Assembly (NCBI GenBank): GCA_016188005.1
Contig: JACPIQ010000056.1
Location: forward strand, 1 to 64,000
DNA length: 64,000 bases
Reading direction: 5' to 3'
From: Candidatus Rokuibacteriota bacterium
Lineage (GTDB): Bacteria; Methylomirabilota; Methylomirabilia; Rokubacteriales; CSP1-6
Shown here: positions 3,161-17,576 of the stretch, piece by piece
How the letters are laid out: every line of letters starts with the position of its first letter
Numbering within the stretch: position 1 is the stretch's first letter
Notes under the pieces: model-generated
Told to the model about the DNA's origin: nothing
The model's input: the letters and a program-made list of their open reading frames with translations, nothing else
Database searches by the model: none
Position numbers and translations under genes: made by a program

Positions 3161-3226
3161 GGGCCCGGCCGGGTGGACCGGCGACAGCGGCCCGGGACCC
3201 GGTGGCGCCATGGTGACGACAGCCTC

Positions 3227-6200
3227 ATGAGCGACGTCGACGCCCTCCTCCAGGAGATCGTGGAGGCGCTCGCGCGTCCGCGGCGCGCGACCTACCGGCT
3301 CCAGCTCGGCCCGACGCTTTCCTTCGAGGACGTCGGGGCGCTAGCGCCATACCTGTCCTCGCTGGGCGTGAGCGAGGCCTACCTCTCCCCCTGCTTCAGA
3401 TGCGGATCGGGCAGCTCTCACGGGTACGACATCACCGACCACAACGCGTTCAACCCCGAGATCGGGACCGAGGCCACCTTCGATCAGATGGCCCGGACCC
3501 TGGCGAAGCACGGGATCGGCGTCATCCTGGACGTCGTCCCGAACCATATGGGCATCTCCGGCGACGCCAATCCCTGGTGGCTCGACGTGCTGGAGAACGG
3601 CCCCGCCTCCCCCTACGCGCGGTTCTTCGACATCGACTGGGCGCCGGTGAAGCCGGAGCTGCGCAACAAGGTCCTGCTGCCGGTGCTGCCGGACCAGTAC
3701 GGGCGCGTCCTCGAGTCCCAGCAGCTCCAGCTCGAGTTTTCCGAGGGCGCCTTCTTCGTGCGCTACGCCGGGTCGCGCCTGCCCGTGGCGCCGGACTCCT
3801 ACGCGCAGGTGCTGACCCACCGCGCGGAAGCGCTCGGCGCACGCCTCGGTCCCGAGCACCCACAGCTGCGGCAGTTCCAGAGCATCCTCACTGCTCTGGA
3901 CCATCTCCCGCCGCAGACGGAAGTCGATCCGGCGCGCCTGGAGGAGCGGCTCCGGGAGAAGGAGATCGTCAAGCAGCGGCTGGCGGCGCTCGTCAAGGAA
4001 TCCCCCGAGATCCACGAGTTCATCGACGACAACGTCCGGCGCTTCAACGGGACACCGGGAGACCCGGCGAGCTTCGACCTCCTGGAACGGCTGCTCGCGG
4101 GGCAGGCCTACCGGCTGGCCGACTGGCGGGTGGCCGGCGACGAGGTCAACTACCGGCGCTTCTTCGACGTGAACCATCTCGCCGCCATCCGGACGGAGCT
4201 CCCCGAGGTCTTCGACGCCATCCACAAGCTGATCCTCCGGCTGGTGGGCGAAGGCACGGTGACCGGCCTCAGGGTGGACCACCCGGACGGGCTCCACGCC
4301 CCGGGCGAGTACTTCCGCCGGCTGCAGGAAGGCGCGGTGGTTCACACCGCCCGCCGCCTGGCTCCGGACGTGGTCGGCGAGGGCACGGAGGTGCTGCTGG
4401 CGCGGTACCGGGAGCTGGCGAGACCGGACCCGGCCACCGCCCTGGCCCGCCCGCTCTGGGTCGTCGCCGAGAAGATCCGCATGGCCGACGAGGGCCTGCC
4501 CGAGTGGTGGCGCCTCGCGGGCACCACGGGGTACGACTTCCTCGCGTCGGTCAACGGGTTGTTCGTGGACCGGGGCAACTCGCGCCAGATGACGGCGCTC
4601 TATGCGCGGGTCGCCGGGAGCGCGCCGCCCATGGCCGATGTCGTCCACTCCGCCAAGCGGCTGATCATGCAGCTCTCCATGGCGAGCGAGGTGAACCGCC
4701 TCGGACACCAGCTCGACCGGCTCTCCGAGACCAACCGGCACACCCGGGACTTCACGCTGCACAGCCTGATCCGGGCGGTGCGCGAGGTCATCGCCTGCTT
4801 CCCCGTGTACCGGACGTACATCGGCGACGAGGGGCTCGAGGTGAGCGCGCGCGACCGCGCCTTCGTCGAGCGCGCCGTGGCGGACGCCAAGCGGCGCAAC
4901 CCCACCGTGAACGTGTCCATCTTCGACTTCATCCGCGACACCCTGCTGCTGCGCAACCCCCCGGACGCCGGCGAAGAGGATCGGACGAGGCGGCGTCACT
5001 TCGTGATGCGGTTCCAGCAGACCAGCGGGCCCGTGACGGCCAAGGGGATCGAGGACACGGCGTTCTACGTCTACAACCGCCTCGTCTCGCTGAACGAGGT
5101 GGGCGGTGACCCGGGGCGGTTCGGCGAGCCGGTCGTGGCGTTCCACGAGAAGAACGCGAAGCGCCTGGCGCGCTGGCCCCAGTCGCTCCTGTGCACCTCG
5201 ACGCACGACACCAAGCGGGGCGAGGACGTCCGCGCGCGCATCAACGTGCTGTCGGAGATCCCCGTCGAGTGGGCCGCGTGCGTCCGCCGCTGGCGGGTCA
5301 TCGCGCGGCGGTGGAAGCGGGAGGTGGACGGGCAGGCGGCGCCCGACCGCAACGACGAGTACCTCCTGTACCAGACGCTCGTCGGCGCGTGGCCGGTGGA
5401 GCCGCACGCGGACCTCCAGGCGTTCACCGCCCGGATCTGCGCGTACATGGAGAAGGCCGCCAAGGAGGCCAAGCGCAAGACGAGCTGGACCAATCCAAGC
5501 CCGGCGTACGATGCGGCGCTGCGGGACTTCGTCACGGGGCTCCTGGCGGCCGGCGGGCCTTTCCTCGCCAGCCTCCTGCCGTTCCAGCGACGGGTCGCCC
5601 TCTATGGGGCCGGCAACTCCCTCGCCCAGACCCTGCTCAAGCTCGGCGCGCCCGGGGTGCCGGACTTCTATCAGGGCTCCGAGCTCTGGGACCTCTCGCT
5701 GGTGGACCCCGACAACCGGCGTCCCGTGGACTTCGCCCGGCGCCGGACGCTGCTGGCCTCCCTCGGCGCCCTCCTCGAGGCGCGCAGCGGCGATCTGGCA
5801 GCGCTGTGCGCCGAGCTCCTCGAGAGCTGGGCCGACGGGCGGCTGAAGCTCTACCTGATCCAGCGCGGGCTGGCATTGAGACAGGAACGCCCACGCCTCT
5901 TCGAGACCGGCGCCTACCGGCCGCTGGAGGCCGGCGGCGCGCGCGCCGAGCACCTGGTCGGCTTCGCGCGCGTGGGTGCCGGCGGCGCGGTGGTCGTGGC
6001 AGTGCCGAGGCTCATGGCGCGGCTGACCGGCTTCTCGGGCGCGCTCCCGCTCGGCGCGGATGCGTGGGGCGACACCTGGCTATCGCTCGGAAGCGAGCAC
6101 CTGGCAGGGCGCTACCGCGACCGGCTCACGGGCCGGGCGCTCGACACCGACCGTCGCGACGGCGTGCCGACGCTGCCGGCGAGCACGGTCTTCGCCGGCT

Positions 6201-6241
6201 TCCCGGTGGCGCTGCTCGAGCAGGAGGCGGCGACCCCGTGA
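3227..6241 (+). CDS. treY: Maltooligosyl trehalose synthase TreY
   Basis: GH13 intramolecular transglucosylase that converts the reducing-end alpha-1,4 bond of maltodextrin into the alpha,alpha-1,1 bond of a trehalosyl end, the first step of the TreYZ route. About 1004 residues, somewhat long for TreY. Visible motifs: ATYRLQLGPTLSFED at the N-terminus, VPNHMG, the nucleophile segment GLRVDHPDGL (Asp351), the acid/base segment VVAEKIRM (Glu415) with TGYDF just after, GIEDTAFYVYNRL, TSTHDTKRGEDVRAR and GAPGVPDFYQGSELWDLSLV. The start was placed at ATG 3227 (MSDVDALLQE); an upstream ATG at 3173 would add 18 non-conserved residues. Its stop overlaps the GTG of treZ, so the two are translationally coupled. 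Confidence 0.95.
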   Translation: MSDVDALLQEIVEALARPRRATYRLQLGPTLSFEDVGALAPYLSSLGVSEAYLSPCFRCGSGSSHGYDITDHNAFNPEIGTEATFDQMARTLAKHGIGVILDVVPNHMGISGDANPWWLDVLENGPASPYARFFDIDWAPVKPELRNKVLLPVLPDQYGRVLESQQLQLEFSEGAFFVRYAGSRLPVAPDSYAQVLTHRAEALGARLGPEHPQLRQFQSILTALDHLPPQTEVDPARLEERLREKEIVKQRLAALVKESPEIHEFIDDNVRRFNGTPGDPASFDLLERLLAGQAYRLADWRVAGDEVNYRRFFDVNHLAAIRTELPEVFDAIHKLILRLVGEGTVTGLRVDHPDGLHAPGEYFRRLQEGAVVHTARRLAPDVVGEGTEVLLARYRELARPDPATALARPLWVVAEKIRMADEGLPEWWRLAGTTGYDFLASVNGLFVDRGNSRQMTALYARVAGSAPPMADVVHSAKRLIMQLSMASEVNRLGHQLDRLSETNRHTRDFTLHSLIRAVREVIACFPVYRTYIGDEGLEVSARDRAFVERAVADAKRRNPTVNVSIFDFIRDTLLLRNPPDAGEEDRTRRRHFVMRFQQTSGPVTAKGIEDTAFYVYNRLVSLNEVGGDPGRFGEPVVAFHEKNAKRLARWPQSLLCTSTHDTKRGEDVRARINVLSEIPVEWAACVRRWRVIARRWKREVDGQAAPDRNDEYLLYQTLVGAWPVEPHADLQAFTARICAYMEKAAKEAKRKTSWTNPSPAYDAALRDFVTGLLAAGGPFLASLLPFQRRVALYGAGNSLAQTLLKLGAPGVPDFYQGSELWDLSLVDPDNRRPVDFARRRTLLASLGALLEARSGDLAALCAELLESWADGRLKLYLIQRGLALRQERPRLFETGAYRPLEAGGARAEHLVGFARVGAGGAVVVAVPRLMARLTGFSGALPLGADAWGDTWLSLGSEHLAGRYRDRLTGRALDTDRRDGVPTLPASTVFAGFPVALLEQEAATP

Positions 6242-8070
6242 GCCTTGCGGTCCGGAGCATCCACCGCATGCCGTTCGGCGCCGAGGTCCAGGGCGACGCC
6301 ACCCGGTTCCGGCTCTGGGCGCCCGGCGCGCGCAGCGTGGAGCTGTGGCTGGAGGACGAGAAGCGGGCGCTGGCCATGCCGCGCGATCCCGAGGGCTGGG
6401 CGGAGCTGACCGTGCGGGAGACCCCGGCCGGCACGCGGTACCGCTTCCGGATCGACGGCGAGCTCCTCGTGCCGGATCCGGCCTCCCGCTGCCAGCCCGA
6501 CGGCGTGCACGGACCGAGCGAGGTCGTGGACCCGTTCGCCTACCGCTGGTCCGATACCGGCTGGGACGGCATTCCCGCCGAGCGGCTGATCTTCTACGAG
6601 GTCCACGTGGGCGCCTTCACCCGTGGGGGGAGCTTCGCCGCGCTCGCGGAGCGTCTCGACCACCTGGCCTCCCTCGGGGTCACCGCCCTCGAGCTGATGC
6701 CCGTGGGCGAGTTCCCCGGTCGCCGGGGATGGGGCTATGACGGCGTCCTCCCCTTCGCCCCCGAGGCCCGCTACGGGCGGCCCGACGAGCTCAAGGCGCT
6801 CGTCGACGCTGCCCACGCGCGCGGCCTCGCCGTGGTCCTGGACGTCGTCTACAACCACTTCGGGCCCGAGGGGAACTACCTGCACCCCTACGCGCCCGCC
6901 TTCTTCAATCCGCGCCACCGGACACCCTGGGGCGACGCGATCAATTTCGATGGCGCGGGCTCGGCGGTCGTGCGGGCCTTCGTGGTGCACAACGCCGTCC
7001 ACTGGCTCGAGGAGTACCACATGGACGGGCTGCGCCTGGACGCCGTCCACGCCATCGGCGACGACTCACCCTCCCACGTCCTCGTGGAGCTGGCCCGGGC
7101 CGTGGCCGAAGGTCCCGGCAGCGAGCGGCGCATCCACCTGGTGCTCGAGAACGACGGCAACGAGGCCCGCTACCTCGCCCGGCACGGCGCCCGGCCGCTC
7201 TACCAGGCCCAGTGGAACGACGACCTGCACCACGCCCTGCACGTCCTGCTGACGGGGGAGCGGGGCGGCTACTACGCCGACTACCAGCCCGCCCAGTCGG
7301 CGCTCGGCCGCGCTCTCACGGAGGGCTTCGTCTACCAGGGCGACCACTCGGGCTACCGTGGGCGGCGGCGCGGGGAGCCGAGCCGGGATCTGCCGCCCAC
7401 CGCCTTCGTCGGCTTTCTCCAGAACCACGACCAGGTGGGCAACCGCGCCTTCGGCGAGCGCGTCACGGCGCTCGCGCCGCCCGAGGCCGTACGGGCGGCC
7501 ACGGCCGTGCTCCTCCTCGCGCCGGAACTCCCGCTCCTCTTCATGGGGCAGGAGTGGGGAGCCGTCCAGCCCTTCCTCTTCTTCAGCGACCTGGGCCCCG
7601 ATCTCGGCCCGGCCGTCGCCCACGGGCGGCGGCGGGAGTTCGCCCGCTTCCCCGAGTTCGCCGACCCCGTGGCTCGCGAGCGCATCCCCGATCCCCAGGC
7701 CCCGGAGACCTTCGAGCGGTCGGTGCTCGACTGGAGCGCCGCTGACCGACCGGAGGGCCGCGACTGGCTCGACTTCCATCGCGCCTTGCTCCGCATCCGG
7801 CACGCTGAGATCGCCCCGCTGCTCACGGGAGAGCCGGTGCCGCGGACGGGCTGGAGCAGGCTCGGGAAGGCGGGCGTCGAGATCGAGTGGGCCTTTGACG
7901 GCCGGAGGGTGCTGCGGCTGATCGTCAACCTCGGCCCGGAGCCCGTCCCTCACCCGGGCCCGCCGCCGGAGTGGGGACGCCAGCTCTACGCGCTCGGCCT
8001 GGGTGCCCCGGGGGTGCCGGAGCTCCCGCCCTGGGGCGTGGGCTGGTATCTCGCGGAGCGGGAGCGATGA
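6238..8070 (+). CDS. treZ: Malto-oligosyltrehalose trehalohydrolase TreZ
   Basis: GH13 hydrolase that releases trehalose from the maltooligosyl-trehalose made by TreY. 610 residues. The GTG at 6238 lies in a GTGA overlap with the treY stop; the frame is open much further upstream, but that part is a shadow of treY. An N-terminal CBM48-like domain (FRLWAPGARSVELWL) is followed by the GH13 barrel: FYEVHVGAFT, VVYNHFGPEGNYLH, nucleophile GLRLDAVHAI (Asp268), acid/base LVLENDGNEARYL (Glu304) and FLQNHDQVGNRAFGER. The last 85 bp overlap, tail to tail, the 3' end of glgM on the other strand, so there is no room for a terminator between the two. Confidence 0.95.
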   Translation: MSLAVRSIHRMPFGAEVQGDATRFRLWAPGARSVELWLEDEKRALAMPRDPEGWAELTVRETPAGTRYRFRIDGELLVPDPASRCQPDGVHGPSEVVDPFAYRWSDTGWDGIPAERLIFYEVHVGAFTRGGSFAALAERLDHLASLGVTALELMPVGEFPGRRGWGYDGVLPFAPEARYGRPDELKALVDAAHARGLAVVLDVVYNHFGPEGNYLHPYAPAFFNPRHRTPWGDAINFDGAGSAVVRAFVVHNAVHWLEEYHMDGLRLDAVHAIGDDSPSHVLVELARAVAEGPGSERRIHLVLENDGNEARYLARHGARPLYQAQWNDDLHHALHVLLTGERGGYYADYQPAQSALGRALTEGFVYQGDHSGYRGRRRGEPSRDLPPTAFVGFLQNHDQVGNRAFGERVTALAPPEAVRAATAVLLLAPELPLLFMGQEWGAVQPFLFFSDLGPDLGPAVAHGRRREFARFPEFADPVARERIPDPQAPETFERSVLDWSAADRPEGRDWLDFHRALLRIRHAEIAPLLTGEPVPRTGWSRLGKAGVEIEWAFDGRRVLRLIVNLGPEPVPHPGPPPEWGRQLYALGLGAPGVPELPPWGVGWYLAERER

Positions 8071-9215
8071 GCCTCGATCGCCTCCTGGTAGACGCCGAGG
8101 GTCAGCCCGGCGATGCGCGCCCAGCTGAAATGCTCCTCGACGCGGCGGCGGCCGGCGCGCCCGAAGGCGGCGGCGCGCCCGGGATCGCCGAGCACGGCGT
8201 TGACGGCGGTCGCCAGCGCCACGGGGTCCGCGGGGGGCACGAGCCACCCGGTCTCGTCGTGGACGACGACCTCGCGGATGCCCCCGACCCTCGTGGCGAC
8301 GACCGGGGCGGCGCAGGCCATCGCCTCCAGGTTGATCAGCCCGAACGGCTCGTAGACCGACGGACAGACGAAGACCGCGGCGTGGCTGTAGAGCTGCACC
8401 AGCTCCTCCCGCGGGAGCATGGCGTTGACCCAGCGCACCCGAGGGTGACCCGCCACGGCGGTACGCAGCCGCGACTCCAGCTCCGCGGTGTCCGGGGTGG
8501 CGGCGCAGAGGACGAGCTGGACCTCCACGGGGAGCCTCGTCGCGGCCTCGAGGAGATGGAAGATCCCCTTCTGCTCGCTGATGCGCCCCACGAACAGGAC
8601 GTAGGGGGGGCGGACGCCGTGGTGGGCCAGCGCCTCGCGGCGGTCAGTGCGGCGGAAGGCCGTGGCATCGACCCCGTTGTGAATGACCCGGACGCGCTCC
8701 GCGTCCACAGAGAAATGGGCGAGGACATCCTCCCGCATCCCGGCCGAGACGGCGATCACGCGCTCGGCCTGCTCCACGGCCCCACGCTCGGCCCAGCTCG
8801 ACAGCGCGTATCCGGGCCCGAGCTGCTCCTCCTTCCAGGGCCGGAGGGGCTCGAGGCTGTGGAGCGTGACCACCAGCGGGATGTCGAACAGCGCGCGGAC
8901 GAGCAGGCCGCCCAGTGCCACGTACCAGGTATGCGAGTGCACGACGTCCGCGACGACCGGGTCGCACGCCATGGCCAGGTTCACCGAGAGGGCCTGGAGC
9001 GCCGGCGCGTGCCGGGCCTCGGCGGTCCCGGCCAGCCGCTCCCACGGAGCATAGCCGCGAACGCGGAGCGCGGGCTCGTCGCGATCGGCCTCGCCGAAGC
9101 AGCGCACCTCGACCGTGGCCCGGCCGGCCAGCGCCCGGGTCAGGTGGTCGACGACCACCCCGGCGCCACCGTAGACGTGAGGCGGGTACTCCCGCGTGAG
9201 CATCAGGATCTTCAC
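7986..9215 (-). CDS. glgM: GT4 glycogen synthase/maltose-1-phosphate synthase GlgM
   Basis: A GT-B retaining glycosyltransferase of the actinobacterial GlgA/GlgM type, which joins ADP-glucose and glucose-1-phosphate into maltose-1-phosphate, the substrate of GlgE. 409 residues. Seen: KILMLTREYPPHVYGGAGVV at the N-terminus, VVHSHTWY, HSLEPLRPWKEEQLG, the nucleotide-binding FVGRISEQKG (Arg and Lys both kept), and the EX7E motif in YEPFGLINLEAMAC. Start is GTG 9213-9215, with GGGAG/GGAG just upstream. The C-terminal ~28 residues, rich in Ser/Pro/Gly after YQEAIEAH, are read antisense to treZ and look like a run-on tail. Divergent from the DUF5752 operon across only 46 bp. GlgM rather than plain GlgA is favoured by glgE being present. 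Confidence 0.85.
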   Translation of the reverse strand: MKILMLTREYPPHVYGGAGVVVDHLTRALAGRATVEVRCFGEADRDEPALRVRGYAPWERLAGTAEARHAPALQALSVNLAMACDPVVADVVHSHTWYVALGGLLVRALFDIPLVVTLHSLEPLRPWKEEQLGPGYALSSWAERGAVEQAERVIAVSAGMREDVLAHFSVDAERVRVIHNGVDATAFRRTDRREALAHHGVRPPYVLFVGRISEQKGIFHLLEAATRLPVEVQLVLCAATPDTAELESRLRTAVAGHPRVRWVNAMLPREELVQLYSHAAVFVCPSVYEPFGLINLEAMACAAPVVATRVGGIREVVVHDETGWLVPPADPVALATAVNAVLGDPGRAAAFGRAGRRRVEEHFSWARIAGLTLGVYQEAIEAHRSRSARYQPTPQGGSSGTPGAPRPSA

Positions 9216-9261: not shown

Positions 9262-9921
9262 ATGGCCGCTGCTGAGTCGTTCGTGTTCCAGGGGTGCGTC
9301 CAGGTCTGCGAGCTCGTCTCCTGCGACGCGCACGACCTGCGCGAGCTCCTGGAGCAGATCCGGCGCGTGCCGGCCGAGTCCATCTTCTGTCACACGTCCG
9401 TCCTGCTGGTGCACCGTCCCCCGCTGCTGGACGCCTACCCCAACGACTTCGCGCTGTGGACGGACGTCGAGCTCCGCGATCGGCGGCTCACCGAGCGTCT
9501 CGCCGCCATCGATCCATTCCAGCTCGGATCCATCGAGGCCGTGCGGGCCGAGCTGGTCTCGACGATCGAGCACCATCTGCAGCAGCTGCCGGCGGCGCCG
9601 CCCCGAGCGGGACAGCCGTTCCAGTTCCTACAGTACCACCTCGTGCCGGTCCCCACCGGGCACCAGGCCCGGACCCTCCGGGAGTTCCGGGATGCCCTGG
9701 CCGAGGTGGACGTGAGCGCCCTCTTCTTCCACACCGTCGAGGCGCGCTACCGGCTCGGTCGCGGCCGGGGCGACTTCGCCGAGTGGATCGACACCGCGCT
9801 CGGGCGGCACGAGCTGGCCGAGCGTCTGGGCCACATCGATCCCTACGCGGGCACGCTGGAGCGGGTCCGGGAGCGGCATCTCATCGCGCTGAACCGGGCC
9901 CTGGAGGAGGGGGACCAATAG
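9262..9921 (+). CDS. DUF5752 family protein with internal duplication
   Basis: 219 residues, cytosolic. Two homologous halves are visible: residues ~7-106 (RELLEQIRRV, FCHT, NDFALWTD, ERLAAIDP) and ~120-214 (REFRDALAEV, FFHT, GDFAEWID, ERLGHIDP). The pattern Phe-x-His-Thr, then a Phe-Ala-x-Trp segment and an Arg-Leu...Ile-Asp-Pro segment, repeats in order. Start at ATG 9262 (MAAAESF) after a G-rich site; its TAG overlaps the GTG of the TreT-like gene by one base, so the two are coupled. Function unknown. First gene of the operon that continues to maltokinase; this placement suggests a role in alpha-glucan or trehalose metabolism. Confidence 0.75.
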   Translation: MAAAESFVFQGCVQVCELVSCDAHDLRELLEQIRRVPAESIFCHTSVLLVHRPPLLDAYPNDFALWTDVELRDRRLTERLAAIDPFQLGSIEAVRAELVSTIEHHLQQLPAAPPRAGQPFQFLQYHLVPVPTGHQARTLREFRDALAEVDVSALFFHTVEARYRLGRGRGDFAEWIDTALGRHELAERLGHIDPYAGTLERVRERHLIALNRALEEGDQ

Positions 9922-11120
9922 TGCCGAACGGGCTCGCCGTCAAGCTGGACGACTACCGGGCGGTGGCCCCGCGCGGCTCCGTGGACTTCCTGCTGCGCAT
10001 CGCCGAGCGGCTGCGAGGGCGCCGTCTGGTCGAGGTGAGCGAGTCCCGGTACGGCGGCGGCGCCGTCGAGATGCTGAAGCGGCTCGTCCCGATCCTCAAC
10101 GACCTGGGCATCGAGACGAGCTGGGAGGTGGTCATCGGCACCGCCGACTTCGACGCCACCGTCCGCGCCGTCGCCAAGGGCCTCGCGGGCATCGAACAGG
10201 TGGTCACCGAGGCGATGCTCGAGCGCCTCCACGCCACGTGCGCCGGCAATGCGCGGCGCCTCCCGCTCGACGCCGATCTCGTGATGGTCCACGACACGGC
10301 GGCGCTGCTGCTCGTGGAGGGACGGCCGGCGGCCGGGCGCTGGGTGTGGCGCTACCACGGCGACCTCTCGTCGCCGCAGCCACAGCTGTGGAACGCCCTG
10401 CGGCCGGTCGTCGAGAAGTACGACGCCGTGGTCTTCTCCATCGCGAAGTTCGCCGCACCGCTGACCACGCGGCGCTTCCTCATCGCGCCCTCGATCGACC
10501 CGCTCTCCGAGCGCAACCGCGAGATGTCGCGCGCCGAGCAGGGCCGGCACCTGGAGCGGCTCGGTGTCCGTGCGGACAAGCCGATCCTCCTGCAGGTGGG
10601 CCCCTTCGAGCGCCTCCAGGATCCGCTCGGGGTGGTGAACGCGTACCGCCTCGTGCAGAAGCACCACGACGTGCGGCTGGTGCTCGCCGGCCCGGCGCCG
10701 GGGCCGGGAGGCGTGCTGGCGGAGGCGCAGGAGGCGGCGAGCCAGGACCCCGACATCACGGTGGTCGTCCTGCCCCCGGACCCGCAGCAGGAGCTCAACG
10801 CGCTCGAGCGGGCCGCGACGATCGTGCTGCAGAAGCCGCTCATGACGGACTTCGGCGCCGACGTGGCGGCCGCCATGTGGAAAGGCAAGCCGGTCGTCGG
10901 CAGCCTGGCCGGCGGCATCCCCTCCCAGATCGTGTCCCGGGTCACGGGATATACGGTGGAGACCGTCGAAGGCGCGGCGTTCCGCATCCGACACCTGCTG
11001 AACAACCCGGAGATGATCGGCCGCATGGGAGCGGCCGGCCGCGAGTACGTGCGGCGCAACTTTCTCATCACGCGACACCTGGGCGACTACCTGGCGCTGC
11101 TCGCCCACCTGTCCGCCTGA
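9921..11120 (+). CDS. TreT-like GT4 protein lacking catalytic residues
   Basis: 399 residues, GT-B fold, clearly related to trehalose glycosyltransferring synthase TreT: VKLDDYRAVAP at the start, SRYGGGAVEMLKRLVPILND near 42-60, RYHGDLSSPQ near 144, QDPLGVVNAYRLV near 233, and MWKGKPVVGSLAGGIPSQI near 319. True TreT, as I know the family, has an RFDPWKD nucleotide-binding segment and REGFGLT followed by TEAMWK (the EX7E motif). Here these read GPFERLQD (~227-234) and MTDFGADVAAAMWK (~308-320): the Arg, the Lys and both Glu are gone. A catalytically inactive or re-purposed paralogue is therefore likely. GTG start at 9921 is fused to the DUF5752 stop (TAGTG). Confidence 0.75.
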   Translation: MPNGLAVKLDDYRAVAPRGSVDFLLRIAERLRGRRLVEVSESRYGGGAVEMLKRLVPILNDLGIETSWEVVIGTADFDATVRAVAKGLAGIEQVVTEAMLERLHATCAGNARRLPLDADLVMVHDTAALLLVEGRPAAGRWVWRYHGDLSSPQPQLWNALRPVVEKYDAVVFSIAKFAAPLTTRRFLIAPSIDPLSERNREMSRAEQGRHLERLGVRADKPILLQVGPFERLQDPLGVVNAYRLVQKHHDVRLVLAGPAPGPGGVLAEAQEAASQDPDITVVVLPPDPQQELNALERAATIVLQKPLMTDFGADVAAAMWKGKPVVGSLAGGIPSQIVSRVTGYTVETVEGAAFRIRHLLNNPEMIGRMGAAGREYVRRNFLITRHLGDYLALLAHLSA

Positions 11121-11135
11121 GGGGCGCCGCAGGCC

Positions 11136-12374
11136 ATGGAGCGCACGCTGCTGACGGAGGAGGCGCAAGCCGAGATCGAGCGCATCGGCTCGGCGGACCT
11201 CGTGATCGGCGTGCCGACGACGGCGGCGACTCCGGGCCTCGCTGGCGTGGCCGCCGCCGTGCGCGCCGGGCTGGAGGCGCACTTCTCCGGCCATTCGTCC
11301 GCCGTCATCCACGTCGACCAGGCGCCCTCCGAGGAGGCGGGAGCGCTCCTCGCCCAGGGGCTCGGGGACGTGCCGGTCGTCCGGGCCCGCCCCGCCCACC
11401 CGAGCGCGGGCCCGCCGCTCCAGCTCGGGCGGGACGAGGCCGTCCGCACCACCCTCGCCGCCGCGCGCGCGCTGGGCGCACGGAGCATCGTCCTGCTCAA
11501 CGCCGAGATCGTCGGCCTCACCGCCGACTGGGTGCGCGGCCTGGCCGGCCCCGTGCTGAAGGACGACTACGGGATGGTGCTGCCGGTCTACCAGGCGAGC
11601 CGCTACGAGGGGACGCTGACCCACGCCCTGGTGGTCCCCCTGACGCGGGCGCTGTTCGGGAAGCGACTCGCCCGGCCGCTGGCGGAGGAGTTCGGCTGCT
11701 CGGCGATCGCGGTCGCCGGCTTCCTGGAGCAGGACGTCTGGGAGACCGACCTCGCCCGCAACGGCATCGAGTTCTGGCTGCCGGCCGCGGCCGTCGCGCA
11801 GGAGCTCACGATCGGCGAGGCCACGCTCGGCCCCCGGCGCATCCCCGCCCCGGCGCGGCCGGCGCCGCTCGGCGCCATCGTGGGGCGCACGGCCGGGTCC
11901 CTGTTCGCCATCGCCGAGCGGTACGAGACCCTCTGGCTCGAGCGGCACGGCTCCGAAGCGGTCCCGTGCTTCGGGCCGCGCCCCGAGCCACAGCTCGACA
12001 CCGCCCCCGACCCGGAACGGATGCTGGTCGGCTTTCGCCAGGGCGTGCGTGACCTCTTCCCGGTATGGGAACGCATCCTGGCCCCGGAGAACCTGAGCGA
12101 GGTGCTGGCGCTCAGCGACGCCGCGGTCGATGAGTTCCGCTTCTCCGACCGGCTCTGGGCTGGTGTCGTGTACGATTTCCTGCTGGCCTATCGGGCACGC
12201 GTCGTCTACCGGAGCCACGTCGCCCAGTCCCTCGCGCCGCTCTACCTGGGCCGCGTGGCCGCGGTGATCTTCGAGACCCTGAACCGGCCGCCCTCCGCCG
12301 TGACCGAGGTGACCGAGCGCCTCTGCCGCGAGTTCGAGGAGCGCAAGCCGTACCTGGTGGACCGCTGGCGATGA
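11136..12374 (+). CDS. GT81/GGS-like GT-A protein with altered DXD motif
   Basis: 412 residues. The layout follows glucosylglycerate/glucosyl-3-phosphoglycerate synthase-like GT-A proteins: ADLVIGVPTTAAT at the N-terminus, a nucleotide-binding half, then RYEGTLTH followed by VVPLTRALFGKR and PLAEEFGCSAIA. In active relatives I expect a DGGSTDG-like loop near residue 60, a DSD (metal-binding DXD), KYDGTITN, and a GGDFG segment. Here the loop reads HVDQAPSEEAG, DSD is NAE (122-124), and GGDFG is AEEFG (183-187). The metal site is therefore probably lost. It lies 15 bp after the TreT-like gene, and its stop overlaps the glgE ATG (ATGA). Confidence 0.7.
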   Translation: MERTLLTEEAQAEIERIGSADLVIGVPTTAATPGLAGVAAAVRAGLEAHFSGHSSAVIHVDQAPSEEAGALLAQGLGDVPVVRARPAHPSAGPPLQLGRDEAVRTTLAAARALGARSIVLLNAEIVGLTADWVRGLAGPVLKDDYGMVLPVYQASRYEGTLTHALVVPLTRALFGKRLARPLAEEFGCSAIAVAGFLEQDVWETDLARNGIEFWLPAAAVAQELTIGEATLGPRRIPAPARPAPLGAIVGRTAGSLFAIAERYETLWLERHGSEAVPCFGPRPEPQLDTAPDPERMLVGFRQGVRDLFPVWERILAPENLSEVLALSDAAVDEFRFSDRLWAGVVYDFLLAYRARVVYRSHVAQSLAPLYLGRVAAVIFETLNRPPSAVTEVTERLCREFEERKPYLVDRWR

Positions 12375-14371
12375 TCCCGCCGCCCCCGAGGAGAGAACGG
12401 GAGGGCTCCATCGTGATCGAGCACGTACAACCGGCCGTGGACGACGGCCGGTACCCGTGCAAGCGCGAGGTCGGGGATCACCTGGAGGTCTCGGCCGACA
12501 TCTTCAAGGAAGGGCACGACGTCCTCGAGGCGGTGGTCCTCTACCGGAGCAGCGAGGAGCCGGGCTGGAGCGAGGTGCCCATGCGCCCGCTCGACAACGA
12601 CCGCTGGAGCGGGCACTTCCCGCTCGAGCGGAACACGCGCTACCTCTTCACGGTCGAGGCGTGGACGGACGTCTTCGGCTCGTGGGTGGAGGAGATGGGG
12701 CGCCGCCTCGCCGGCGGGCAGACCGATCTCGGGAGCGAGCTGCTGGAGGGGCGAGAGCTCATGCGCCAGGCGGCGGCCCGGGCGCCGGCGGCGGACGCGG
12801 CACCGCTACGCCTGGCGCTGGAGCGGTACGACACCCTCGCCGCGCAGGCGGAGCGCCTCGACCTGCTCCTCGACCCGGGTCTCCGCCGGGCCGTCTCCCG
12901 GGCCCAGGCGCGGAAGGACCGGACCCGCCACGACCGCGCGCTCGAGGTGGTCGTGGACCGGGTGCGCGCGCGCTGGGGCGCCTGGTACGAGCTGTTTCCG
13001 CGCTCGCAGGGGACCATCCCCGGGCGGCACGGCACCTTCGACGACTGCGTCCAACGGCTGCCCGACATCCAGCGCATGGGCTTCGACGTCGTGTACCTGA
13101 CGCCGATCCACCCGATCGGGCGCACCCACCGGAAGGGCCGGAACAACAGCCTCGTGGCGGACCCCGCCGACCCGGGCAGCCCGTGGGCCATCGGCGGACC
13201 CGAGGGCGGGCACACGGCAGTCCACAAGGAGCTGGGCACCCTCGACGACTTCCGCCGCTTCCTCAAGGCCGCGCGGGGGCTCGGGATCGAGATCGCCATG
13301 GACTTCGCCATCCAGTGCTCACCCGACCACCCGTGGGTGCAGGAGCATCCGGAGTGGTTCTACCAGCGGCCGGATGGCACGATCAAGCACGCGGAAAACC
13401 CCCCGAAGAAATACCAGGACATCTACCCGGTCAATTTCTCGTGCGAGGCGTGGGAATCCCTCTGGGAGGAGCTGCGGCGCGTGGTCCTGTGCTGGGTGGA
13501 GCAAGGCGTCCGCATCTTCCGCGTGGACAACCCGCACACCAAGCCGCTGGACTTCTGGCGATGGCTGATCCGCGAGGTCCAGGACCGCCACCCCGACGTC
13601 GTCTTCCTGGCCGAGGCGTTCACCCGGCCCAAGGTCATGAAGGCCCTCGGCAAGGCCGGGTTCACCCAATCCTACACCTTCTTCACCTGGCGCAACTTCA
13701 AGGAGGAGCTCGCCGAGTACTTCGAGGAGCTCACCCGGTCGGAGATGGCGGAGTACTTCCGCGGCAATCTCTTCTGCAACACCCCCGACATCCTGCCCGA
13801 GATCCTGCAGCGCGGGGGGCCCCCCGCCTTCAAGATGCGGGCGGCGCTCGCCGCGACCCTCTCGCCGCTCTGGGGCATCTACAGCGGATACGAGCTCTGC
13901 GAGGCCGCGGCCGTGCCCGGGACCGAGGAGTACCTCGACTCGGAGAAGTACGAGATCCGCGTGCGGGACTGGGACCGGCCGGGCCACATCAAGGACTACA
14001 TCGCCCAGCTCAACCGGATCCGCCGGGAGAACCCGGCGCTCCACGGGGACCGTAACCTGCGCTTCTACGAGGCCGACAGCCCGCACATCCTCTTCTACGG
14101 CAAGATGACCGAGACGCGGGATAATGTGGTCCTGGTGGCCGTGAACCTGGATCCCTTCGCCGCCCACGAGGCGACACTGCACCTGCCGCTGGATGACCTG
14201 GGCTTCGCGCCCGAGGAGACCTACGAGCTCCACGACCTCCTCTCGGACAGCCGCCAGCTCTGCCGCGGGCCGCGACAGACCGTGACCCTGGATCCCCGGG
14301 TGTCCCCCGCCCGCGTCTACCGGCTGGAGCGGTGGCGGCGGCGCGAGCGCGACTTCCAGTACTTCTACTAG
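12371..14371 (+). CDS. glgE: Alpha-1,4-glucan:maltose-1-phosphate maltosyltransferase GlgE
   Basis: GH13_3 enzyme that extends alpha-1,4-glucan with maltosyl units from maltose-1-phosphate. 666 residues, the usual GlgE length. N-terminal Ig-like domain (VEPAVDDGRYPCKREVGD-like start, EVSADIFKEGHD), helical insert, then the barrel: YELFPRS, VYLTPIHPIGRTHRKGRNN, MDFAIQCSPDHPWV, nucleophile IFRVDNPHTKPLDFW (Asp386), acid/base VVFLAEAFTRPKVM (Glu415), GFTQSYTFFTWR, then a C-terminal beta domain. The ATG at 12371 lies in an ATGA overlap with the preceding stop; treS follows after 6 bp. With treS, maltokinase and glgM all nearby, the full GlgE pathway is encoded here. Confidence 0.95.
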   Translation: MIPPPPRREREGSIVIEHVQPAVDDGRYPCKREVGDHLEVSADIFKEGHDVLEAVVLYRSSEEPGWSEVPMRPLDNDRWSGHFPLERNTRYLFTVEAWTDVFGSWVEEMGRRLAGGQTDLGSELLEGRELMRQAAARAPAADAAPLRLALERYDTLAAQAERLDLLLDPGLRRAVSRAQARKDRTRHDRALEVVVDRVRARWGAWYELFPRSQGTIPGRHGTFDDCVQRLPDIQRMGFDVVYLTPIHPIGRTHRKGRNNSLVADPADPGSPWAIGGPEGGHTAVHKELGTLDDFRRFLKAARGLGIEIAMDFAIQCSPDHPWVQEHPEWFYQRPDGTIKHAENPPKKYQDIYPVNFSCEAWESLWEELRRVVLCWVEQGVRIFRVDNPHTKPLDFWRWLIREVQDRHPDVVFLAEAFTRPKVMKALGKAGFTQSYTFFTWRNFKEELAEYFEELTRSEMAEYFRGNLFCNTPDILPEILQRGGPPAFKMRAALAATLSPLWGIYSGYELCEAAAVPGTEEYLDSEKYEIRVRDWDRPGHIKDYIAQLNRIRRENPALHGDRNLRFYEADSPHILFYGKMTETRDNVVLVAVNLDPFAAHEATLHLPLDDLGFAPEETYELHDLLSDSRQLCRGPRQTVTLDPRVSPARVYRLERWRRRERDFQYFY

Positions 14372-14377
14372 CGCGCC

Positions 14378-16057
14378 ATGACGGTCGGCGACGGGCTCTG
14401 GCACAAGGACGCGGTCTTCTACGAGGTGCACGTCCGCGCCTTCAAGGACGGCAACGACGACGGCATCGGCGACTTCGTCGGCCTGACGAGCCAGCTCGAC
14501 TACCTCAAGGAAGTCGGCGTCGACTGCCTGTGGCTGCTCCCCTTCTTCAAGTCTCCGCTCCGCGACGACGGCTACGATGTCTCCGACTACCGCGCGATCC
14601 ACCCCGACTACGGCACGATGGACCACTTCGAGCGGTTCCTCGACGCCGCCCATGGCCGGGGCATCCGGGTGATCGCGGATCTCGTGATGAACCACACCTC
14701 GGACCAGCACGCCTGGTTCCAGGAGGCGCGCCGCGCGCCCGACTCCCCCTACCGCGGCTACTACGTGTGGAGCGACACCGATCGCGCCAACCGCGAGGCG
14801 CGCATCATCTTCGTGGACGCGGAGGCGTCGAACTGGTCCTGGGACCCGGTCGCGAAGGCGTACTACTGGCACCGGTTCTTCCACCATCAACCCGACCTGA
14901 ACTACGACAACCCGGCCGTCAGGCAGGAGATGCTGGACGTCATGGCCTTCTGGCTCGACAAGGGGCTGGACGGCTTCCGCTGCGACGCCGTGCCCTATCT
15001 CTTCGAGCGCGAAGGGACGACCTGCGAGAATCTGCCCGAGACCCACGCCTTGCTCAAGGACATCCGCCGGTGGATGGACACCCGCTACACGGGACGGATC
15101 CTGCTGGCCGAGGCGAATCAGTGGCCGACGGACGTACGCGCCTACTTCGGCGACGCGGACGAGTTCCACATGGCGTTCCACTTCCCGCTGATGCCGCGCA
15201 TCTTCCTGGCCGTGCGCCACGCCGACCGCCGGCCCATCACCGACATCTTCATCCACACTCCCGAGATCCCCGCCGCCTGCCAGTGGGGCCTCTTCCTCCG
15301 CAACCACGACGAGCTGACGCTCGAGATGGTGAGCGAGGACGAACGCCGTCACCTCTACTACGCCTATGGTGACGACCCGAGGATGCGATTGAATCTCGGG
15401 ATCCGGCGCCGGCTGGCGCCGCTGCTCGACAACGATCGGCGGAAGATCGAGCTGCTCACGGCCCTGCTCTTCACCTTGCCGGGCAGCCCGATCCTCTACT
15501 ACGGCGACGAGATGGGCATGGGCGACAACATTTACCTCGGCGACCGCAACGGCGTCCGCACGCCCATGCAGTGGACCGGCGACCGCAACGCGGGCTTCTC
15601 CCACGCTGACACCGCGCGACTCTACCTGCCCCTCATCGTGGATCCCGTCTACGGCTACCAGGCCATCAACGTCGAGGCGCAGCTCCGCACGCCCTCCTCG
15701 CTGCTGAAGTGGATGAAGCGCATCATCGCGGTCCGCAAGAAGACCCGCGTGTTCGGGCGCGGGAGCTTGCATTTCCTGCGCCCGGCCAACGAGAGCGTCC
15801 TGGCCCACGTGCGGTCGTACGAGGGGGAGACCGTCCTCGCCGTGCACAACCTCTCGAGCGCGGCGCAGCCCGTCGAGCTGGACCTGCGCCCCTGGAAGGG
15901 CTACATGCCGATCGAGATGCTCGGCGAGAGCCGGTTCCCCACCATCGGCGAGCTGCCGTACTTCATCAGCCTCGCGCCGTACGGCTACTACTGGTTCCGG
16001 CTCCAGTCGCCGTCGCCCGATCAGCTCTTCTATGGCATCGAGTTCGCCCCGCTCTAG
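14378..16057 (+). CDS. treS: Trehalose synthase TreS (maltose/trehalose isomerase)
   Basis: GH13_16 enzyme interconverting maltose and trehalose. 559 residues. Motifs: [20 protein letters not shown] at the start, [31 protein letters not shown], nucleophile [16 protein letters not shown] (Asp203), acid/base LLAEANQWP (Glu245), [29 protein letters not shown] and [15 protein letters not shown]. In this pathway it supplies maltose to the maltokinase encoded immediately downstream; the two genes overlap by 26 bp, replacing the TreS-Mak fusion seen in many bacteria. Start ATG 14378 lies 6 bp after glgE. Confidence 0.95.
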
Positions 16058-17576
16058 CGCCGCCGCGGTCGTGCAGTACCTGGCGGGGCCCGGCGCGACG
16101 GGGCTCCGTGCCTTCGTCGAGCGCCAGCGCTGGTTCGCCGCCAAGGCGCGTGGCCTCGGGGTGGTGCGCGTGGAGGACTGGGCCGCGCTCCGCGCCGAGC
16201 CCCCGCTCGTCCTGCTGCTGGTCCGCGCGGATGACGATCGCTACTACGTGCCGGTGACGGTCGGGCGCTCGCCAGCGGGCGGCGACCGGACGATCGGCCC
16301 GGTCGGCGCCGAGATGCTCTACGACGCGCACTGGGACCCGGACTTCGGCCGCTGGCTCCTGAAGGCGATCTCCTCCCGCCGCACGCTGCCGGGGACCAGG
16401 GGGGTCTTCCGCTGCGCGGCGATGGAGCCGTGGGGCGGCCCGTCGGGGGACGAGATGGAGACCCTGCCGGCCACCCCCCACGCCGGGGAGCAGAGCAACA
16501 CGTCGATCGTCTTCGACCGGCGCCTGATCCTCAAGTCCGTCCGGCGACTGCAGGCAGGCACCAATCCGGAGTTCGAGATGCTGCACTTCCTGGGGGGCCG
16601 CGCACGCTTCCCCCACGCGCCGCGGCTCGCGGGCTGGGTGGAGTATGCCGGCGACGGCGAGGCGACGACACTCGCGCTCCTCCAGCAGTTCGTCGTCAAC
16701 ACCGGGGATGGCTGGACGCATGCCCTGGCGCGCCTCGGCCGCCTCTGCGACGCGCTCGATGCCGAGCCCGCGACACCCGGCGAGGTCGAGCCGCGCATGG
16801 CCACGCTCGGCGCCGATCTCCTCGCCGAGATCCACCAGCTGGGCGCCGTGACCGGCGGGCTCCACGCGGCGCTCGCCTCGGATCCGTCGCTGCCGGACTT
16901 CCGTCCCGAGGCGATCACCCCCGCGGATGCCAGCCGCTGGGGGCGCGGCATCGTGCAGGATCTCGAGCGCCTGGCGGCCGACCTGGAGGCGGCCTCCTCA
17001 CGGCCTCCCGAGGGGGACCGGGCGGCGCTCGCCCAGCTCCTCGGCGGGCGCGGGCGTATTGAGCGGGCCGCGGAGGAGCTGTGCCTCCTCGCCGACGGCA
17101 TGACGCACAAGATCCGCTGCCACGGCGACTACCACCTGGGACAGGTGCTCAAGACCGCCGAGAGCTTCGTCGTCATCGACTTCGAGGGGGAGCCGGCCCG
17201 CTCCCTGGCGGAGCGGCGCGCCAAGCACTGCCCGCTGCGGGACGTGGCCGGGATGCTCCGGTCCTTCGACTATGCGGCCCATACCACGCTCCTGGCCCGG
17301 CCCTTGGACCGGCGGGAGCGGCTGCGCCCCTGGCTCCAGGTGTGGGAGCGGCTGGCCGCCCGCGACTTCATCGAGGGCTACGTGCCGGCGGCCGGGAAGA
17401 GCCCGGTCCGCCTCCTGCCGCCTTCCGCGGAGGGGGTCCGGCGGGCCTGCGCGGCCTTCGAGCTCGAGAAGGCGTGCTACGAGCTCCGCTACGAGCTCAA
17501 CAACCGGCCGGATTGGACCTTCATTCCCCTGGCCGGCATCTCGCGTATTTTGGGAGCGACGCGCGGAGACCGCTGA
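16032..17576 (+). CDS. mak: Maltokinase (Mak/Pep2-like)
   Basis: 514-residue kinase that phosphorylates maltose at C1 with ATP, giving maltose-1-phosphate for GlgE. The N-terminal cap contains [12 protein letters not shown], the [11 protein letters not shown] segment (~155) and [10 protein letters not shown] with the ATP-binding Lys. The phosphotransferase core has the catalytic loop [12 protein letters not shown] (Asp366) and the metal-binding VVIDFEGEP (Asp383), then [15 protein letters not shown]. These are characteristic of Mak and of the C-terminal half of TreS-Mak fusions. It overlaps the end of treS by 26 bp and is the last gene of the operon; the next gene is on the opposite strand. 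Confidence 0.92.

Follow-up and report, generated by a model that had tools for sequence, protein, structure and literature searches.

A DUF5752 protein and two glycosyltransferase-fold proteins that have lost canonical catalytic residues accompany TreS in Candidatus Rokuibacteriota/Methylomirabilota and Nitrospirota

In a stretch of 64,000 nucleotides from a Candidatus Rokuibacteriota bacterium (GenBank assembly GCA_016188005.1, contig JACPIQ010000056.1, positions 1 to 64,000 of the forward strand; "the window" below), the genes glgE, treS and mak are preceded on the same strand by three others, which encode a DUF5752 protein of 219 amino acids with a two-fold internal repeat (9262-9921), a protein of 399 amino acids with the GT-B fold of TreT, a member of glycosyltransferase (GT) family GT4 (9921-11120; referred to here as pTreT), and a protein of 412 amino acids with the GT-A fold of mannosylglycerate synthase (MGS), similar to families GT78 and GT81 (11136-12374; pGT). 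Sequence comparisons give good support to the view that the canonical catalytic sites of both pTreT and pGT have been lost. Since this apparently dead pair of glycosyltransferase-like proteins travels with DUF5752 and with enzymes of the trehalose-to-glucan pathway in two phyla, Ca. Rokuibacteriota/Methylomirabilota and Nitrospirota, its role is probably to keep that pathway together or under control, and not to transfer sugars. More specifically, we see about an even chance that the set of three, or triad, forms an accessory complex which transfers no sugar itself and belongs to the TreS branch of alpha-glucan metabolism, where it acts as a scaffold/chaperone or as an allosteric subunit. The evidence consists of predicted folds, residue losses, gene linkage, purifying selection and co-occurrence with TreS. 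A first-pass annotation of the DNA had described the three genes as tightly coupled before glgE, and their coordinates agree with this: the GTG start of pTreT overlaps the DUF5752 stop codon by one base (its last), and the stop codon of pGT shares an ATGA junction with the start of glgE (12371).

Membership of pTreT in the TreT family is indicated by PF21269 (TreT_GT1), which matches it with 112.9 bits against a cut-off of 27, and by the TreT of PDB entry 6zj4, which matches its sequence with E 6.8e-84. The predicted model of pTreT (predicted local distance difference test, pLDDT, 84.8, with weak stretches at 1-4, 307-309 and 329-342) superposes on this T. uzoniensis structure with Z 51.3 and 1.7 A over 386 residues at 36% identity. 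With NF041139, which describes the Thermococcales TreT, it scores 251.5 bits, below the cut-off of 775, and so does an intact relative (396.8). The Arg, Lys and EX7E glutamates that characterize retaining GT4 enzymes are all missing, as had been proposed: the Arg and Lys of the donor site are replaced by P228 and Q233 within the PFERLQD motif (codons 228-234, positions 10602-10622), and the two glutamates by T309 and A317 (codons 309-317, positions 10845-10871). In PDB 2xmp, the entry title of which describes P. horikoshii TreT with E326 changed to Ala, that Ala aligns to the first EX7E position. In addition, pTreT is without the N-S-T and H residues of the N-terminal domain. Of 106 TreT columns that are invariant in 25 intact DUF5752-TreT pairs, 17 are kept in fewer than 30% of the triads of Methylomirabilota (columns 40-42, 48, 54, 81, 82, 85, 86, 126, 227, 228, 230, 233, 258, 314 and 315); the secondary structure of the model places the first of these in the beta1-alpha1 loop or beyond it, and in the helix at 75-88. 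Pair-invariant columns within 346-399 are 96% kept.

For pGT of the window, no Pfam or NCBIfam family is found above its cut-off, and one Nitrospirota and one Rokubacterial pGT from triads reach the cut-off of neither PF21969 (MGS_GT) nor PF00535; among three intact cousins, PF00535 is passed by all and PF21969 by two. The predicted pGT model (pLDDT 91.9) has GT78 mannosylglycerate synthase as its nearest fold (Z 32.5, 349 residues), in a match that spans model residues 22-409 and takes in the helices of the MGS-like C-terminal domain, and a profile built from decayed and intact members is in agreement (2y4k, E 1.7e-6). The first-pass annotation had seen a GGS/GT81-like layout, which needs adjustment in that GT81 GpgS is the second-nearest fold (Z 18.2). 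According to PMC2581804, GpgS has a conserved donor-sugar network of Asp134-Lys114-Glu232, a metal held by Asp136, and a His258 placed as His217 is in MGS. The equivalents of MGS K76, D100, D102, D192 and H217, whose roles are taken from the same source, are R99, N122, E124, E185 and I236 in the window. The DXD (now N122-A-E124), the Lys and the metal-binding His of the donor site are absent, and the acidic residue of xED type is kept as a Glu (E185). The earlier claim of NAE in place of DXD stands, that of a telling AEEFG is weakened because E185 is still acidic, and the changes of Lys (to R99, a conservative one) and His (to I236) are losses beyond those first listed.

The columns that have been lost from pTreT vary among the triads of Methylomirabilota (entropy percentiles of 0.77 for the Arg, 0.98 for the Lys and 0.85 for the first glutamate; 0.37 for the second), and at the thresholds used a single residue, A392, is newly fixed among them. 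In pGT three residues are newly fixed among all 56 triads surveyed below, T28, R99 and R156, all of them conservative changes. Such drift of the site columns, with few newly fixed residues, resembles loss of function at the site and not the making of a new active site.

The third member, DUF5752, is matched by PF19027 with E 9.4e-54 and 182.4 bits (curated cut-off 23) and by PDB entry 4cso, OrfY of T. tenax (E 1.5e-22). Its supposed internal duplication is confirmed by a half-against-half alignment score of 93, whereas none of 1000 shuffles scored above 57. Triads and intact DUF5752-TreT pairs do not differ in how the conserved columns of DUF5752 are kept. A His and a DF..W motif recur in both halves (H44/H157, W66/W175) and are retained in the triads as well as in the pairs. 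We found no paper on DUF5752 in an open-access library.

How general the arrangement is can be judged from its relatives. Among 40 relatives (with the genome of the window counted), 26 have proteins similar to pGT, intact ones included. TreT-like proteins at E 1e-40 occur in 51 out of 60 genomes from the order, and DUF5752 in 66 out of 95 from the class; in a scan of named genomes with pGT, the best 80 of 206 were used. A DUF5752-TreT-pGT set was counted as a triad if pGT lay within 400 bp downstream of TreT. An earlier and looser rule (any same-strand pGT within 2.5 kb) was narrowed after the rows had been inspected; it had admitted three intact pGT (loci L138, L204 and L240) and intact TreT (L197_8761, L204 and L240). 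With proteins shorter than 300 amino acids excluded (e.g., L006, which is the same as L115, and L025, which reads PHEE at the Arg, Lys and two glutamate positions), the sample holds 89 distinct TreT-like proteins and 56 triads, 40 from Methylomirabilota and 16 from Nitrospirota.

Loss of the sites goes with gene context. In none of the 56 triads is the five-residue site of pGT complete, as against 69 of 72 other copies; the exceptions are L039, identical to L213 (PDTCR; it lies at the edge of a contig, next to a TreT fragment), and L121 and L173, with one residue changed each. Likewise, no triad (0/56) has the complete eight-residue TreT signature, which is found in full in 25 of the 28 DUF5752-TreT pairs that have no pGT downstream, in all five standalone TreT and in 6zj4. 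Among the three exceptional pairs, L102 and L103 (TreT PKEE) are at contig edges by GlgE, TreS and Mak, and L022_15865 is a frameshift piece. In pGT the Lys is lost in every triad (it is Arg in 52), the first Asp in 42, the second in 22, the Asp/Glu in 49 and the His in 55. In TreT the Arg or Lys is lost in 40/40 triads of Methylomirabilota, and the N-S-T and H residues are kept in none of the 54 triads that are readable there (L034 and L146 are without that stretch). The Nitrospirota triads of this first set mostly lost residues other than Arg, Lys and the glutamates: Arg is kept in 14, Lys in 15 and both glutamates in all 16, as compared to S41 in one, T42 in none and H85 in none (one of the 16 being unreadable at these positions). 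DUF5752 is upstream in 56/56 triads, though in L146 merely as a 44-residue piece, and TreS, GlgE or Mak is found within 7 kb in 53, the remaining three (L038, L082 and L098) being near downstream contig ends. Reading frames are open in nearly all loci, with TreT broken or cut in L034, L104 and L146. An artefact of assembly can be dismissed, as some triads (e.g., L225, L226, L234, L244, L251 and L260) come from contigs that are 4.1-4.7 Mb long.

A prediction was recorded before a further 20 Nitrospirota pGT loci were retrieved, and the tightened triad rule was applied to them. These loci were hand-picked high-ranking matches, many from genomes with two matches, and are thus a non-random set of relatives of the first; all 20 pGT and 17 TreT are distinct and none is identical to a protein of the first set. 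The prediction held in 20 of 20 loci, with both proteins decayed in all 16 new triads and pGT intact in all four loci outside triads, where the single TreT present is also intact. In the new triads the N-S-T and H residues of TreT are lost 16 times out of 16, as are the Lys and Asp/Glu of pGT, and the pGT His is lost in 14. Canonical residues are accordingly missing across 56 + 16 triads, and the three families stay together across genomes of two phyla. The suggestion that two families losing catalytic residues in one operon is unlikely to be chance is thereby upheld, and the counts across the first and further loci rule out a single-genome oddity as well.

In a pGT tree of 46 chosen rows with the motif columns removed, one branch splits decayed from intact proteins (support 98/95, present in 98% of bootstrap trees), for which reason a single ancient decayed pGT family is the simplest reading. 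In the TreT tree the Nitrospirota triads form a group (100/100) that does not join the Methylomirabilota triads, and in a larger, quick TreT tree the latter stand next to intact pairs from their own class. On these alignments the TreT losses in the two phyla may have had one origin or two, as a single clade is not rejected (approximately unbiased test, p-AU 0.078).

Several other arrangements were seen among these loci. In L022, a close relative of the window, a second DUF5752-TreT pair (15087-16957, reverse strand) is present near the triad; its donor motifs are intact (SRFDRFKDP, REGFG...E) and its TreT is split across two frames. Intact MGS-like genes are found near DUF5752-TreT pairs in L204, L240, L255 and L138, which represent both Methylomirabilota and Nitrospirota (TreT is intact in the first three and cut by the contig end in L138), and this suggests an older cluster in which trehalose and glycosylglycerate genes were linked. 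In family f9 (L197:4164-9900; L199:6458-14081, reverse strand) the triad follows TreS, a GlgA-like gene and Mak, and in L197 an intact DUF5752-TreT pair directly follows the decayed triad. In the Nitrospirota triad L146 (8908-9936) the tail of DUF5752 runs into a TreT without its N-terminus and TreS is missing; this is a deletion or misassembly within a triad, and the genome of L146 gave no DUF5752 match.

The ratio of nonsynonymous to synonymous divergence (dN/dS, by the NG86 method) was calculated mainly between the window and L022, a pair in which Mak and GlgA were not comparable. It is 0.118 for DUF5752, 0.152 for pTreT and 0.254 for pGT, and for the neighbours it is 0.209 (GlgE), 0.159 (TreS), 0.269 (TreY) and 0.247 (TreZ). 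Three other pairs of triads gave values of 0.07-0.27 (pTreT 0.121, 0.105 and 0.179; pGT 0.225, 0.149 and 0.268), and TreT of an intact pair gave 0.104. The low values for pTreT and pGT argue against pseudogenes, and together with the open frames in the window they led us to reject pseudogene decay.

The partner enzyme was sought in 60 genomes of the order, of which 42 have the triad (a count that takes in G001 and G056, whose triads are truncated at contig ends), with TreS scored at E 1e-150. Triad and TreS are both present in 39 genomes, the triad only in three, TreS only in one and neither in 17 (Fisher 5e-11, uncorrected for kinship). Two of the three triad-only genomes carry TreS fragments by the triad (G054 and G060), which when counted give 41/1/1/17, and the third is a 3-kb contig. 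For GlgE the corresponding counts are 38/4/3/15 (Fisher 5e-8); if the GlgE piece that L103 carries in G056 is included, they become 39/3/3/15. Three genomes with a GlgE match and no TreS match lack the triad (G010, G046 and G070), and two with triad and TreS gave no GlgE match (G063, 94% complete; G067, 77%). The TreS-versus-GlgE difference amounts to a handful of genomes. The first-pass annotation had raised control of GlgE-pathway flux; the link of the triad to GlgE is weaker than that to TreS. By position, TreS is directly upstream of TreT in 15 of 16 Nitrospirota triads of the first set and in 16 of 16 of the further set, and in Methylomirabilota it is within three annotated genes downstream in 33 of 40 triads. 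Among the remaining seven it is fourth (L095 and L104), upstream (L197 and L199) or absent from a stretch that stops at a contig end (L038, L082 and L098). Because of both co-occurrence and adjacency, TreS and not GlgE is the candidate partner.

A plausible history would begin with an ancestral DUF5752-TreT pair, of the kind that is intact elsewhere, which was joined by an MGS-like protein already without its Lys/Asp/His site. Beside this pGT, TreT would have lost the substrate residues of its N-terminal domain in each phylum; the Methylomirabilota proteins would also have lost Arg/Lys, and in part Glu, from the donor site. The preferred order is decay of pGT, then of the TreT N-domain, then of the Methylomirabilota TreT donor site and, in the clade of the window, of EX7E. 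The proteins would bind each other and TreS (or TreS-Mak), which would explain why the folds of pTreT and pGT are kept, and the triad might serve as a scaffold/chaperone, or might tune the flux from trehalose through maltose to maltose-1-phosphate as an allosteric subunit. In this scheme the inactivity, the order of events, the complex, its binding to TreS and its regulatory effect are what we infer. The pattern is that of a pseudoenzyme subunit: the catalytic residues are gone, the predicted fold persists under purifying selection, and an active-looking partner is linked. The trehalose synthase of eukaryotes has regulatory subunits that are pseudo-forms of trehalose-6-phosphate synthase (pseudo-TPS). 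More speculatively, and with the balance tilting against it, a TreS-seated regulatory complex of two unrelated pseudo-glycosyltransferases and DUF5752 could be a trehalose/glucan switch that reads sugar-donor or disaccharide levels across Nitrospirota and Methylomirabilota, a prokaryotic counterpart of those subunits.

A number of observations weigh against an accessory complex that transfers no sugar. TreT keeps Arg, Lys and both glutamates in 13/56 triads, all from Nitrospirota (13/16), and in 9/16 of the new ones, so that these proteins may still bind a donor or carry out some transfer; the Rokubacterial fragment L006/L115 keeps these four residues too, by a decayed pGT (DEEQS). Out of 40 Methylomirabilota triads, 36 retain the second EX7E glutamate and 34 the second DXD Asp, both residues being mostly kept outside the clade of the window; this hints at residual ligand binding. 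The exchange of Lys for Arg in 52/56 triad pGT is conservative, and, according to PMC7185993, GT-A enzymes can work without DXD or the C-terminal His. When the window is compared to the more distant L023, dN/dS rises to 0.333 for DUF5752, 0.316 for pTreT and 0.418 for pGT, values above those of GlgE (0.275), TreS (0.174) and TreZ (0.264), with TreY amid them (0.341) and Mak higher (0.522). Lastly, the co-occurrence counts are uncorrected for kinship, GlgE tracks the triad almost as well as TreS does, and the candidate binding to TreS is drawn from gene context.

Retention of most donor-site residues in Nitrospirota, where S41, T42 and H85 are almost all lost, would fit a ligand sensor in which pTreT binds nucleoside diphosphate (NDP)-glucose without transfer and reports donor supply to TreS, the Methylomirabilota protein having moved to another ligand or to a structural role. 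We consider this doubtful, since the Arg is changed to Lys in five and to Ser in one of the 16 further Nitrospirota triads and the donor site drifts in Methylomirabilota. It is unlikely, in our estimate, that pTreT and/or pGT are enzymes of altered chemistry that work through other residues, with a donor other than a sugar nucleotide, or only as a heteromer. The preserved predicted folds, the purifying selection, the second glutamate and second Asp retained in most Methylomirabilota triads, and the existence of GT-A families without DXD or C-terminal His (PMC7185993) speak for such enzymes, but newly fixed residues are few, the Arg, Lys and first-glutamate columns vary freely, and many site residues rather than single ones have gone.

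The entry title of 4cso reads "OrfY protein, transcription factor", and DUF5752 might accordingly be a DNA-binding regulator with the GT-like proteins as effectors or co-regulators; this appears improbable, as DUF5752 is paired with catalytically intact TreT at 25 distinct loci too, a Pfam scan of the window protein gave no domain besides PF19027, and no paper giving the basis of the label was found in an open-access library. It is hardly credible that the triad genes are degenerating remnants of an old operon for TreT and a glycosylglycerate synthase, retained only for the expression of glgE-treS-mak by coupled translation. The start/stop overlaps do suggest coupling and catalytic residues have indeed been lost, but the dN/dS values against L022 and in the three other triad pairs, the frames open in nearly all loci, and the recurrence of the same triad in differing gene orders and in two phyla are all contrary to decay.

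The remaining genes of the neighbourhood are ordered treY, treZ and a GlgA/GlgM-like gene on the opposite strand, followed by DUF5752-pTreT-pGT-glgE-treS-mak. Downstream of the triad and on its strand, GlgE (12371-14371; PF11896/PF21702), TreS (14378-16057; TIGR02456, 929 bits), whose presence tracks the triad best among the neighbours, and the maltokinase Mak (16032-17576; PF18085/PF01636, with TIGR02457 at 355.7 bits, below its cut-off of 375) have all the catalytic motifs sought. Upstream, treY and treZ (3173-8070, forward strand; TIGR02401 and TIGR02402 above cut-off) provide another trehalose route. The GlgA/GlgM-like GT4 enzyme (7986-9215, reverse strand; TIGR02149, 495 bits; start codon tentative) is encoded by a gene that overlaps treZ tail to tail at 7986-8070 and diverges from the DUF5752 operon across a short gap.

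To our knowledge, few pseudo-glycosyltransferases have been described and most of these are eukaryotic. Here, next to a central carbon-storage route, the sites of two different glycosyltransferase folds have both been lost within a single conserved gene set. The triad gives DUF5752 a testable role, the series from active pair to inactive triad is a natural one for enzymes that turn into subunits, and annotations such as "trehalose synthase" or "glycosyltransferase" may mislead when applied to triad genes. A search of an open-access library yielded no paper describing such a triad, which is weak evidence of absence; in the accessible portions of PMC7688234 the neighbourhood terms sought around treT of S. 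acidocaldarius are absent, and those of PMC11046441 do not mention Rokubacteria, Nitrospira or DUF.

Among known systems, TreT (GT4; 6zj4, 2x6q) is like pTreT in the whole predicted fold, including the C-terminal region, and in having DUF5752 as a neighbour in intact pairs; it is unlike pTreT in that the latter has lost the R, K, EX7E, N-S-T and H residues and has TreS and pGT as constant neighbours. MGS (GT78) and GpgS (GT81) share the fold of pGT, with the C-terminal helices in the case of MGS. VldE and the yeast proteins Tps3/Tsl1 are also pseudo-glycosyltransferases, of which VldE is catalytic; the entry title of PDB 4f9f uses the same term. The TreS:Pep2 complex of mycobacteria, in which TreS binds the maltokinase Pep2 in a 4+4 or 4+2 arrangement, resembles the proposed complex in that TreS binds a second enzyme of the pathway, and differs in that no pseudo-glycosyltransferase or DUF5752 subunit is mentioned in the accessible portions of the source (PMC6509496). 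COSMC, a GT-A protein that has neither DXD nor xED, demonstrates that such a protein can serve as a chaperone (PMC7185993), and like pTreT and pGT it combines a conserved glycosyltransferase fold that is without these motifs with linkage to an active partner. COSMC is, however, a human chaperone of its own paralogue, whereas in the triad two unrelated glycosyltransferase folds have decayed together by TreS.

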